DNA of 64,000 bases from Planctomycetota bacterium (lineage in GTDB: Bacteria > Planctomycetota > UBA11346). Positions 21,495 to 52,168 of the stretch are shown piece by piece; the first letter of the stretch is position 1; the number at the start of each line of letters is the position of its first letter. The notes below the pieces were generated by a model. It was given only the letters and a program-made list of their open reading frames with translations, was not told the origin of the DNA and did not search any database. A program made the position numbers and the translations under genes. The stretch is from positions 248,001 to 312,000 of the forward strand of contig JACDEI010000001.1 of the NCBI GenBank assembly GCA_013816485.1, read 5' to 3'.

Positions 21495-22463
21495 ATGGGC
21501 AAGCGCGATATGCCGAAGTACCGGTTGGGCATCGACCTGGGTGGAACGAAGATGCACGCGGTGGTGATCAATCGGAAGGGCAAGGTGCTTGGCAGCGCGC
21601 GCCGTGCGACCAAACCCGAGGACGGCTACAAAGCGGTGTTGAGGCGCTTGGTCGACACCGCCGATGAAGCAGCGGAGGACGCCGAGCTGGATCTGGACGA
21701 CTTCGATGCCATCGGCCTGGGCATGCCTGGACCGATCGACGACCGGCGCGGCATGGTGCACCTGGCGCCCAATCTCGGCTGGCGTGAACGGTCGGTGGCT
21801 GACGACCTCAAGCGGGTGATCAAACGCCCGGTGGTGCTTGGCAACGACGTGAACTTCGGTTGTCTCGGCGAGGTCACCCACGGGTGCGCCAACGGTTCCG
21901 CCAGCGCCTTCGCTGCCTTCGTCGGTACCGGACTCGGTGGTGGCGTGGTGCTCAATGGCCGGCTGGAAAACGGTCTGCATGGTTTTGCCGGCGAGATCGG
22001 CCATGTGCCGGCACCGTTCGGCGATGCAGCGTGCGCGTGTGGACTGAAAGGCTGCCTCGAGACCTCCGCGAGCAAGACCGGCATCATCCGGCTGATCCTC
22101 GAGGAACAGCGTCGCGGGACGAAGAGCCTGATTCGGCTCAAGAAAGGTGATCGCCTGAAGTCGTCGCAGTTGCGTGAGGCATGGAAGCGTAGATGTCCGG
22201 CGACACGCGCAGCGGTGGCACGTTCCTGCCGGGCGCTTGGCTGGGGCCTTGGCGCAGTGGCTGGCGTGATCGACCCGGAAGTGTTTGTGCTCGGTGGTGG
22301 CGTCATGGAGGCCATGGGTGACGAGCTGCTGCCGCTGGTGCGCGACGGCATGACGGAATTCAGCATGTGTTACCGTGAGCGGAAACCCGACCTGCGCCTG
22401 GCGGCGCTCGGTGACGATGCAGTGGCGATTGGCGCGGCGGTGGCCAGCGCCGCCGAGGAGTGA
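21495..22463 (+). CDS. ROK-family sugar kinase (glucokinase-like)
   Basis: A 322-residue ROK protein. The ATP-binding P-loop is LGIDLGGTKMHAVV, followed by GLGMPGPID, GNDVNFGCLGE with the catalytic Asp, the ROK signature GTGLGGGVVLNGRL, GFAGEIGHVP with the zinc-ligand His, and the zinc cysteines in CACGLKGCLET. The start at 21,495 has GGAG nine bases upstream; ATGs at 21,441 and 21,510 are alternatives. It sits three bases before ppx, which overlaps ppk1, so a link between hexose phosphorylation and polyphosphate is possible. The sequence itself does not show whether ATP or polyphosphate is the donor. Confidence 0.88.
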   Translation: MGKRDMPKYRLGIDLGGTKMHAVVINRKGKVLGSARRATKPEDGYKAVLRRLVDTADEAAEDAELDLDDFDAIGLGMPGPIDDRRGMVHLAPNLGWRERSVADDLKRVIKRPVVLGNDVNFGCLGEVTHGCANGSASAFAAFVGTGLGGGVVLNGRLENGLHGFAGEIGHVPAPFGDAACACGLKGCLETSASKTGIIRLILEEQRRGTKSLIRLKKGDRLKSSQLREAWKRRCPATRAAVARSCRALGWGLGAVAGVIDPEVFVLGGGVMEAMGDELLPLVRDGMTEFSMCYRERKPDLRLAALGDDAVAIGAAVASAAEE

Positions 22464-48937: not shown

Positions 48938-49136
48938 ATGAGCGACGGTAGGTTGACGGGTGTTCCGCTCCATGGGCGAAGAGGTGTTCGGGCAGTCAGC
49001 GTCTCAAGGGGGCGCGGTGGCGAACGTGAGTGTAACCAGCGGCCAAGTTCCGACGTTATCACAAATCGGAGGCTTGCCTGCTGTGTTAATTCCCCTCTGT
49101 AGTTTGCGGGTTGTTTACGGTGCCCGTTGGTTCGGG

Positions 49137-50279
49137 ATGCCCGCCATGGTTTTGGCACTCAGCGCGTGTGGGGGTGGTGGTTCATCCCCCGCGCCCCTGA
49201 CCGGTTGGGCTGCGATCCGTGCGGCTGCGGTCCCGCAGGTGGCTTTGCCAGCCGAGTTTGAAGATCCCGAGCCGCAGGCGTTGGCGGTCGATGGCTGGGA
49301 AGATGGGATCTTCATCAGCCGTGACGGTCTCCATCTGTTCGCGGTTTATGTGCCAGCGGACCTGCTCAGCTTCACCCTCGCGGGTGCCGATCAGAACCTC
49401 GCCGCGAGCTATTTCCGCGGACCGACCTTTGGCATGGATCTGACCACCAATCCGGTGGGCACGACCAATTGGATCCATGGCAACATCATCCACGCCAGCC
49501 GCGCAAACACCTCGGCTCGTTTCACGCAGTGGCACCTCGCGCCGATGGCCCGCCACACCTGGTCTGAAGGGGCCCCGGTCGCACAGGGACCGAGTGGCGG
49601 CACCTGGGATCTGTTTGTCCACACCACCAACGAACATCCGACCGATTATAAAGCCCACATCGCCCTGGCTCACGGCGCCGCCCTGGATCCAGCGGTTGTC
49701 GGAACACTGCTGCCCGCCCCGGTCACCACCAACAACACTGAGGACAATCCGCACATCGAGCGTCTCGACGCGAACAACCTGGTGCTGTTCTTCGATAGCG
49801 GCGATCGTCCTGGTGCCACCGGGGGGCTCGACCTTTGGTACACCACCAGCCCCGACAATGGCACCACCTGGGCGACTCCACTGCCAGTCACCAGCCTCAA
49901 CACCGCGTTGGACGAGCACCAACCGCACCTGTGGCGCGATTTTGACGATACTTGGTGGCTCTACTTCACCGCTACCAACACCGCCGACAGCAAGCTCGGC
50001 ATCTTCCGTTGCCAACAGACCAGCGCTGGTGACTGGAATGCCTGGGGCACACCAGTGCTGGTCCTTGGTGCCGGCAACACTGCTGGCGTCGGTGAGCCGA
50101 CGCTGACCACGGCTGGAGACCTCTCCTTCGTGGTGGTCTATGAGGACACCGTCAACGGCACACCCACCAACAGATTCGATGCTGATCCTTGGTTCATGCC
50201 GCGCCGTCCAAGTGCGGTGACGCGCAGCGTCGCTCCCATCGTTCACCAACTGGCATCAGCACATCCAGTCCACCGCTGA
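49137..50279 (+). CDS. Lipoprotein with a beta-propeller-like domain
   Basis: A protein of about 380 residues. The N terminus MPAMVLALSACGGGGSS has a lipobox (LSAC), so it is probably a lipoprotein with a Gly/Ser linker. The start is uncertain: the signal peptide from the ATG at 49,137 is very short, and a TTG around 49,102 would give a longer one. The body has repeated blades: FISRDGLHLFAVY, DLFVHTTNEHPTDYKAHIAL, LDLWYTTSPDNGTTWATPL, WLYFTATNTADSKLGIF. The Asp-box-like SPDNGTTW suggests a sialidase or glycosidase-type beta-propeller, but catalytic residues cannot be assigned. Its 5' end lies next to the divergent methyltransferase gene. Confidence 0.72.
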   Translation: MPAMVLALSACGGGGSSPAPLTGWAAIRAAAVPQVALPAEFEDPEPQALAVDGWEDGIFISRDGLHLFAVYVPADLLSFTLAGADQNLAASYFRGPTFGMDLTTNPVGTTNWIHGNIIHASRANTSARFTQWHLAPMARHTWSEGAPVAQGPSGGTWDLFVHTTNEHPTDYKAHIALAHGAALDPAVVGTLLPAPVTTNNTEDNPHIERLDANNLVLFFDSGDRPGATGGLDLWYTTSPDNGTTWATPLPVTSLNTALDEHQPHLWRDFDDTWWLYFTATNTADSKLGIFRCQQTSAGDWNAWGTPVLVLGAGNTAGVGEPTLTTAGDLSFVVVYEDTVNGTPTNRFDADPWFMPRRPSAVTRSVAPIVHQLASAHPVHR

Positions 50280-50423
50280 CGGCGTCAGAACCGACCCGAC
50301 CGGTGGAAATGCAGTCCTTCCCGGGATCGCCGGCGTCTCGCCGGCATGACGCTCATAGCCGGTGAGACGCTGGCGATCATGGGGGGCCGCGATCCATGCG
50401 CTGGGGATTAGCCCAGCGCTCCC

Positions 50424-50473
50424 GCCGCCGCAGGCGGCGATCCGGCGCAGCCGGATGTTCCGCGCAGCGGAAC
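50424..50473. repeat. Hairpin triplet A with GCA loops
   Basis: Three back-to-back hairpins with the loop GCA: GCCGCC-GCA-GGCGGC (50,424-50,438), ATCCGGC-GCA-GCCGGAT (50,440-50,456) and GTTCCGC-GCA-GCGGAAC (50,457-50,473). The same order recurs in triplet B, with compensatory changes. Confidence 0.85.
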
Positions 50474-50556
50474 GGAGCGCGTCGCACCACGGAAGATGTT
50501 GTTCGCGAAGTGTTGTCCCGCGCCCGAGCGCGGCAGTTGCCATCAAGCGACCCCGC

Positions 50557-50605
50557 GCCGCGCCAGCGGCGATCCTGCGCAGCAGGATGCTTCGCGCAGC
50601 GAAGC
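50557..50605. repeat. Hairpin triplet B with GCA loops
   Basis: GCCGC-GCCA-GCGGC (50,557-50,570), ATCCTGC-GCA-GCAGGAT (50,572-50,588) and GCTTCGC-GCA-GCGAAGC (50,589-50,605). Compared with triplet A, stem bases changed on both sides so that pairing is kept. Confidence 0.85.
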
Positions 50606-50686
50606 CAGGGGCTCGCGCCTTGGCCATAAGGGGGGCAGCGGCGAAGCCGCGTTGTCGGGGGGGCGTCCCGACCCCCCGACTGAAAA

Positions 50687-52168
50687 TCAATACGCGAAGG
50701 CTTCGATCCGCACCTTCGGCAGCAGCGAGTCCTGCTTGATCAGGTACTCATCGACGCAGCGCGCCACTTCGCGACCTTCCGCGATCGCCCACACAATCAG
50801 CGACTGCCCACGACGTGCGTCGCCCGCGGCGAACACACCGGGGACCGACGACATGCGCGTATTCACATCGGTCTTCACGTTGCTGCGTTCATCGAGCGCG
50901 CAGCCGACCTGCTCCAGCAGGCCGTTTTTGCGCGGGCCGAGGAAACCCATCGCCAGCAGCACGAGGTCGCACTCCCAGGTTTTCTCGCTGCCCGGTTTCT
51001 CCACCGGCTTGCCCGAGGTCCAGTCGAGTTCGACGGTGGTGAGGCCGGTGACTTTGCCGTCTTTGCCGGCGAACAACTTGGTCGCCAGCGAGTAGTGCAC
51101 GGCGCCGCCCTTGGAGGTCATCTCATCGACCGAGGACGAGATGCGTTTGACGCGCGCCCATTGGGGCCACGGGTTGCCCTTGGTGCGTTCATCCGGCGGG
51201 CAGGGCATCAGTTCGAAGTTGATGACCGAGGTCGCGCCCTGACGCAGGCTGGTGCCGATGCAGTCGCTGCCGGTGTCGCCACCGCCGATGACGATGACTT
51301 TCTTGCCCTTGGCCCAGATCTTCTGTTTCTTCGGGTGCAGGGCGGCGATGTCGGCATCGCCCCAGTTGGCGCGGTTCGACTGCGGCAGGAACTCCATGGC
51401 GTAGTGCACGCCGTCGAGCTCACGGCCGGGCACCGGCAGATCGCGTGGCGCTTCGGCACCGGTGGAGATCACCACTGCGTCGTAAGCCGACTTCACCTGT
51501 TCCCACGGAATGGTCTCGCCCACCGTGGTGTTGTAGCGGAACTCGATGCCTTCGGCGGTGAGCAGATCGATGCGGCGCTGAACTTTTTCCTTCCGCAGCT
51601 TGTAGTGCGGGATGCCGTACATCAGCAAGCCGCCAGCGCGATCGAACTTCTCGAACACCGTGACCTGATGGCCCGCGCGATTCAGTTGCTGAGCGCAGGC
51701 GAGACCGGCAGGACCGCCGCCGATGACGGCGACTTTCTTGCCGGTGCGTACGCTCGGCGGTTCGGGCTTGATCCAGCCCATGGAGAAACCCTTGTCGACG
51801 ATCGACACTTCATGCAACTTGATCGTCACTGGGGGCTCGTTGATGCCGAGCACGCAGGAGTTCTCACACGGTGCTGGACAGACGCGGCCGGTGAACTCCG
51901 GGAAGTTGTTGGTCGCGTGCAGGGCCGCGAGGGCCTCCTGCCAACGGCCGCGGAAGATCATGTCGTTCCACTCGGGGATCAGGTTGCCGAGTGGGCAACC
52001 GGTCATGCAGAAGGGCACGCCGCAATCCATGCAGCGACTGGACTGCGTCTTGACCTGCTCGTCGCTCAATTCCTCGATGTGCTCCTCGTGGTTCACGAGT
52101 CGTTGCTCGGCCGGCAGGTACTTCGGCGCCTGGCGGGTGTGCTTCATGAAACCTTTGGGATCGCCCAT
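50687..52168 (-). CDS. gltD: Glutamate synthase small subunit
   Basis: The beta subunit of NADPH-dependent glutamate synthase; it takes electrons from NADPH and passes them to GltB. The 493-residue protein has the N-terminal cysteine motifs for 4Fe-4S clusters (CMDCGVPFCMTGCPLGN and CPAPCENSCVLG), FAD-binding VAVIGGGPAGLACAQQL, and NADPH-binding VIVIGGGDTGSDCIGTSLRQG, ending in the second flavin motif GVFAAGDARRGQSLIVWAI. It lies 133 bases after gltB, separated by an inverted 9-mer array. Confidence 0.97.
   Translation of the reverse strand: MGDPKGFMKHTRQAPKYLPAEQRLVNHEEHIEELSDEQVKTQSSRCMDCGVPFCMTGCPLGNLIPEWNDMIFRGRWQEALAALHATNNFPEFTGRVCPAPCENSCVLGINEPPVTIKLHEVSIVDKGFSMGWIKPEPPSVRTGKKVAVIGGGPAGLACAQQLNRAGHQVTVFEKFDRAGGLLMYGIPHYKLRKEKVQRRIDLLTAEGIEFRYNTTVGETIPWEQVKSAYDAVVISTGAEAPRDLPVPGRELDGVHYAMEFLPQSNRANWGDADIAALHPKKQKIWAKGKKVIVIGGGDTGSDCIGTSLRQGATSVINFELMPCPPDERTKGNPWPQWARVKRISSSVDEMTSKGGAVHYSLATKLFAGKDGKVTGLTTVELDWTSGKPVEKPGSEKTWECDLVLLAMGFLGPRKNGLLEQVGCALDERSNVKTDVNTRMSSVPGVFAAGDARRGQSLIVWAIAEGREVARCVDEYLIKQDSLLPKVRIEAFAY

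Follow-up and report, generated by a model that had tools for sequence, protein, structure and literature searches.

A dispersed cloverleaf repeat at stop codons of a planctomycete genome and two putative decayed copies beside a gltD-like gene

Results

Hairpin array between convergent genes

The window, a stretch of 64,000 nucleotides (positions 248001-312000 of contig C71), belongs to a Planctomycetota MAG (genome G000, 5.2 Mb in 101 contigs, 87% complete), and positions given below without a contig refer to it. A hairpin array is located between two convergent genes, namely an ORF on the + strand (48960-50279), for which a Pfam search gave no match, and a gene on the - strand (50687-52168), which ends toward the array and which we take from its sequence to encode the small subunit of glutamate synthase (gltD-like). 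Best matches of the gltD product were found in planctomycete MAGs with identities of at most 90%, the value obtained for the relative L024. There, a cloverleaf with matching arm order follows the same gltD gene, the intergenic DNA can be aligned and the loops, read on the gltD strand, are TTT compared to TGC in the window. Two further hairpins on the gltD side, neither assigned to a strand, align with L024 as well: GCGGC-GAA-GCCGC (50638-50650) and a G/C-run hairpin adjoining the gltD stop (50654-50680).

The initial annotation had described two hairpin triplets with GCA loops at this site. The triplets are real and GCA loops were confirmed in five of the six hairpins, the sixth loop being the four-nucleotide GCCA. 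Each triplet comprises three hairpins of 16-17 nt without spacers, enclosed by an outer stem that had been overlooked (GCGCTCC/GGAGCGC and CCCC/GGGG, respectively); because the spacerless hairpins are closed in this way, the unit is regarded as a cloverleaf, that is, a four-way junction. Cloverleaf 1 (50416-50480, + strand), delimited by its fold and by the covariance model R1 introduced below, possesses a 7-bp outer stem of GCGCTCC (50416-50422) and GGAGCGC (50474-50480) and three perfect hairpins on the + strand, CGCCGCC-GCA-GGCGGCG as arm 1 (50423-50439), ATCCGGC-GCA-GCCGGAT as arm 2 (50440-50456) and GTTCCGC-GCA-GCGGAAC as arm 3 (50457-50473). The sequence TTAGC at its 5' foot contains a TAG (50409-50411, + strand), which matches the TAG opening intact copies of the repeat family and is not the stop of an open gene. 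Behind the cloverleaf lies a remnant of the conserved tail, TGTTGTTCGCG-N6-TGTCCCGC (50497-50521, + strand), spaced as in L090 and other intact copies. Cloverleaf 2 (50551-50611, + strand), recognised by sequence and by R1, is closed by CCCC (50551-50554) and GGGG (50608-50611) and carries, likewise on the + strand, CGCCGC-GCCA-GCGGCG (50556-50571) with the four-nucleotide loop and the perfect hairpins ATCCTGC-GCA-GCAGGAT (50572-50588) and GCTTCGC-GCA-GCGAAGC (50589-50605); no recognisable tail was found behind it. Folded as single-stranded DNA, positions 50408-50490 formed a closed four-way junction of -33.1 kcal/mol (z -4.46), and none of 200 shuffles was as good. Searches against Rfam 15 yielded no match at gathering score in the window, and in eight element loci the sole match above gathering score was an unrelated tRNA.

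Just 5' of cloverleaf 1 (50320-50383) an inverted pair of a GCCGGCG-TCT-CGCCGGC-like palindrome was observed, which resembles the BIME palindrome CACGGGCG-TCT-CGCCCGTG present at C71:315358 and at positions 22301, 59705 and 64057 of contig C51.

Architecture and distribution of the repeat family

Hairpin clusters (3-nt loop, stem of at least 6 bp) occurred 12 times in the 327,673 bases of C71 and zero to three times in five locally shuffled copies. A scan of C71 and C51 for such clusters and their subsequent folding led to longer arrays with a common tail. With a 134-nt piece of one array, blastn found 36 places in the genome (E ≤ 0.001), 30 of which were taken as loci L084-L113, and R1 gave 31. 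The repeat is dispersed and about 170-240 nt long, and intact copies follow the order TAG, one strand of a 9-bp stem, arm 1, A, arm 2 (CCCCGGC-like), arm 3 (GTTTCGC-like), the other strand of the stem, hairpin 4 (CCCCGCTCG...CTCGGGG), GATTGTTGTTCGCG, hairpin 5, hairpin 6 and CCCGCAC. A long arm 1, foldable as a nested three-hairpin junction, is seen in many copies, most clearly in L089, L091 and L215. The tail of hairpins 4-6 is conserved and nearly constant among copies.

At one locus (L268, G000:C7:32500-37500, positions 1801-2325) three tandem copies stand about 210 nt apart behind a single gene, and at C51:34973-35969 a gene ending in TAG is directly followed by a tail-only fragment consisting of hairpins 5-6. 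Another peculiarity is that the purine arm of hairpin 5 is mirrored by the linker behind it (GGAC/CCTG, GGGC/CCCG, GGGAC/CCCTG, GGGGC/CCCCG) in about 35 of 39 distinct tails, which reads like parallel (Hoogsteen-type) covariation and could be explained by common descent or slippage.

Occurrence is patchy within one planctomycete family. Among 23 genomes of this bacterial family, five contained R1 matches (31 in G000, 14 in G012, 11 in G021, three in G017 and one in G002), and two congeners had none; blastn with a whole copy found matches in eight of 40 genomes, G000 included. Spread beyond the bacterial family was considered and rejected: 22 of 294 genomes of the phylum matched, and the 13 outside the family did so over merely 23-44 nt (E ≥ 4.6e-5), which was taken as chance. 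A viral or plasmid origin was likewise dismissed, the 22-nt tail pattern having no exact match in viral_contigs and the plasmids no match either.

Covariation and membership of the window copies

Covariation was assessed in 13 of the 30 loci, picked for a single-hairpin arm 1. In these, 95.9% of 534 cells were paired compared to 35.6-44.2% in slid controls, and changes on both sides were found in 24 of 42 pairs, a level reached by none of 500 shuffles. A second set, 55 R1 matches in 50 loci giving 50 distinct rows, showed 92.6% paired cells and both-side changes in 35 of 42 pairs, figures that lean toward R1, because the rows were fitted to it, include its 13 building copies and derive from loci some of which overlap. 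The stems are nearly perfect Watson-Crick helices with few intermediates. Arms 2 and 3 and hairpin 4 together had five G-T and 21 A-C cells, and this lack of a G-T excess argues against a constraint on the sense RNA alone; the whole structure leans slightly the other way, toward such a constraint (64 G-T vs 42 A-C cells), mostly through arm 1 and the base of the outer stem, the parts placed with least certainty when the rows were fitted. A dispersed multicopy repeat with strong covariation is thereby demonstrated, and the earlier view of a structured, copied element whose paired changes preserve pairing is borne out by both copies and covariation, with 31-36 related copies in the genome and strong covariation there and in relatives.

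R1 was built from 13 copies of the own genome without any window sequence and was searched against the window plus L024 (71.8 kb). Its top match was cloverleaf 1 (50414-50509, + strand, 37.0 bits, E 1.4e-4), the reverse strand of which also scored (25.6 bits), and its second match was cloverleaf 2 (50545-50636, + strand, 27.3 bits, E 0.006); the L024 cloverleaf obtained 24.5 bits (E 0.018). In the whole-genome search at E ≤ 0.01 the window copies were absent from the matches. The tail motif behind cloverleaf 1 has no mismatch, and none of 100 shuffles matched it with two mismatches or fewer. By itself TGTTGTTCGCG is not diagnostic, occurring at 40 places in the genome vs three for the reversed control, and 14 of these places outside known copies, which look like coding sequence, had no R1 match at E ≤ 0.1. 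Because of its R1 score, the tail motif with intact spacing and the preceding TTAGC, cloverleaf 1 is taken, on these sequence features, as a diverged and apparently decayed member of the family. Cloverleaf 2 and the L024 cloverleaf, both scoring weakly with R1, are probable members.

Position at stop codons

At 24 of the 30 own-genome loci, read by eye, a same-strand ORF of at least 118 codons lies upstream and its stop precedes the outer stem by 0-4 nt; the exceptions are L085, L100, L102, L106, L110 and L113. The 24 stops comprise 19 TAG, three TAA and two TGA, whereas crude gene calls in C71 and C51 (277 genes) gave 217 TGA, 36 TAG (13%) and 24 TAA, so that the probability of at least 19 TAG among 24 is 3e-13. 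The intergenic DNA of the same sample contains 613 TAG trinucleotides on both strands, so that an element inserting indiscriminately at TAGs would seldom land on a stop codon. In the other genomes the element started exactly at the stop in 12 of 19 loci examined (out of 22 rows), 11 times with TAG and once with TAA. It is thus established that the better-preserved copies lie in sense orientation precisely at the preceding gene's stop, which is usually a TAG supplied by the copy.

The base before TAG varied among the 19 TAG copies (G in nine, T in seven, C in three). Fold z was -0.89 after TAG stops and -0.71 after TGA stops, and owing to this similarity TAG itself is no mark of structure. Stop-codon readthrough after UAG was considered and discarded, with the frame staying open for 74.6 codons on average compared to 79.4 and 96.0 in the other frames. 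At the far end of the element, TGA or TAA directly follows CCCGCAC in six of 42 copies compared to zero to three at 11 other offsets counted, a pattern noticed post hoc.

Orthologous loci

Orthologues of three genes were compared: MAP (20 other loci, the weak L165 being dropped), a BamA-like protein (17 others after removal of the partial or weak L184-L192) and ClpP (19 others, with the second, more distant ClpP of L290-L299 set aside). The conserved tail was found right after the stop in none of the compared orthologues, many of which end at the same residue, in ClpP exactly so in 14 of 19, which indicates that the copies arrived at native stops. Two BamA-like loci of another genus (L172, L173) had, at the stop or close to it, cloverleaves of diverged sequence (25.0 and 26.6 bits), and two others (L171, L174) different hairpin arrays starting at TAG.

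Hairpin arrays of the GGGGCTACGCCCC type start at or near stops in other genera of the bacterial family (L171, L174, L272, L288). Long inverted arrays of short words, e.g., GGTACGAAG and GAGCTACGAG, were also seen directly after the stops of a gltB-like gene (C71:300301-304915) and of other genes on C71 and C51.

Vertical descent of all copies was rejected: blastp among upstream ORF products (100 or more codons in the own genome, 80 or more in the others) recovered a single cross-genome orthologous pair, L104 of G000 and L204 of G002, 80% identical. Their elements are alignable over their length and have locus-specific variants in common, their outer stems differ by paired changes (GGCCC.../...GGGGCC vs GGTTCA/TGAACC), and the flanking DNA beyond is unalignable. 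One copy has therefore persisted at orthologous positions while its stem underwent compensatory changes, a retention that also fits an RNA function. In L204 the gene stops with TGA and TAGC follows 10 nt later; as G002 keeps the TAG 3' of a TGA stop, TAG is considered part of the element and not merely a stop.

Transposase genes

The genome has ten Y1_Tnp loci, and inspection of every one revealed no flanking cloverleaf element, the nearest element to a Y1_Tnp gene lying about 2 kb away on C64. At L263 (G000:C47:70000-74500) a RAYT-like gene is flanked by CACGGGCG-TCC-CGCCCGTG at 1657-1675 and 2342-2360, which is likely a REPtron, and other Y1_Tnp loci have yet different palindromes at their flanks. 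Beside the copies themselves, neither a transposase nor any other mobiliser was detected.

Discussion

The family is akin to the bacterial palindromic repeats already known, with a more elaborate build, and the nearest known kind are the GTAG REPs. As described by Di Nocera et al. (2013, PMC3733652), these are likewise dispersed, palindromic, patchy and mostly 3' of genes, with termini that often provide the TAG stop; they are characterised there as single palindromes of 20-40 bp with GTAG, whereas the present element combines a cloverleaf, nested in some copies, with a tail of three hairpins and has TAG only and no flanking RAYT. Of the features of REPs, many extragenic copies mostly 3' of genes were thus found (36 places, 24 of 30 loci at stops), and because neither GTAG, nor the size, nor RAYT flanks were, the element is regarded as REP-like in the way it works without being classified as a REP. 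BIMEs are alternating inverted copies of one REP, whereas the arms here differ in sequence and form one junction. The BIME CACGGGCG-TCT-CGCCCGTG of the same genome, extragenic hairpin pairs on the same contigs, consists of two inverted copies of one hairpin and flanks the RAYT gene in L263; the cloverleaf does neither.

MITEs are short, non-coding, multicopy and structure-rich as well, and carry terminal inverted repeats and a target-site duplication. Here, however, no terminal inverted repeats around the whole element were recognised, and no target duplication was seen by eye at copy ends, for which a close empty site for comparison was lacking. Integron attC sites are folded recombination sites that, like the present copies, begin at the preceding gene's stop or close to it and contain the boxes RYYYAAC (R'') and GTTRRRY (R'); unlike them, the copies are dispersed among ordinary genes and not in cassette arrays, and attC boxes were not seen by eye. 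In the open-access literature (subscription papers being outside the scope) no cloverleaf repeat at stop codons was found described.

Taken together, the triplets probably represent two decayed modules of a dispersed REP-like cloverleaf repeat, which would have spread as a non-autonomous, DNA-level hairpin element moved in trans. Such an element would adopt its hairpins when the DNA is single-stranded or cruciform; its 5' end would be the TAG at the base of the fold, corresponding to the GTAG of REPs, and movement would be brought about by an enzyme acting on it in trans. Insertions at a gene end would replace or abut the stop with the element's own TAG and survive as 3'-flanking structure, the arms of which would then drift with pairing kept by selection and/or correction of palindromes. 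Neither a polymorphic empty site nor a target duplication could be demonstrated, the congeners being too diverged. Only tentatively would we go further and regard the repeat as a mobile element homing to translation stops, which inserts precisely and in sense at a native stop, bears its own TAG within DNA folded as a four-way junction and may displace the former stop to the opposite end of the element.

A different explanation, in our view rather unlikely, is that of a 3'-UTR RNA element, i.e., a terminator, exonuclease block or regulator of translation termination, selected as RNA instead of being a mobile parasite. It would account for the sense orientation directly behind the stop and the retention of L104/L204 with compensatory changes; structures right behind stops are, moreover, common in this bacterial family, and, according to PMC12306157, REPs of Escherichia coli no more than 15 nt from a stop reportedly influence translation. 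A functional 3' signal should, however, follow the TGA usage of the genome, whereas the element stops are mostly TAG; orthologous stops lack the element, arms 2 and 3 and hairpin 4 are without G-U excess, and no T-run, as in an intrinsic terminator, follows hairpin 6 or the other hairpins in copies inspected by eye. A more local version, a bidirectional terminator unrelated to the repeat family, is unlikely too: the array does lie between convergent genes and L024 has a cloverleaf at the same place, but R1, ignorant of these sequences, gave cloverleaf 1 the highest rank within 71.8 kb, and the tail motif stands behind this cloverleaf.

That the compensatory changes arose by template-switch correction of palindromes during replication, with no selection on structure, is similarly improbable. 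The near-perfect Watson-Crick stems with few intermediates, beside a nearly constant tail, would agree with it, yet it leaves unexplained why nine pairs form an outer stem around all three arms, why copies are anchored at TAG and why one was retained at an orthologous site although the DNA next to it is unalignable. Least credible of all is that the repeat is a conventional REP/BIME whose mobility depends on a REP-associated tyrosine transposase (RAYT), the connection to TnpA-REP suggested for checking in the initial annotation. Ten Y1_Tnp loci exist in the genome and the TAG stops recall those of GTAG REPs, but a cloverleaf with tail of about 170-240 nt is much larger than a REP, its TAG lacks a fixed G, and with none of the ten loci flanked and L263 bearing other palindromes instead, the RAYT reading is largely refuted for these loci.

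Conclusions

If the reading of a non-autonomous cloverleaf element is right, the cloverleaf, even the nested cloverleaf, joins the architectures of bacterial palindromic repeats, and the family provides a clean natural example in which to ask by what means a repeat locates a gene's exact end, as well as a test case for whether perfect palindromes evolve via DNA selection, RNA selection or template switching. Elements swapping stops for TAG would, furthermore, shape stop-codon usage in these bacteria.
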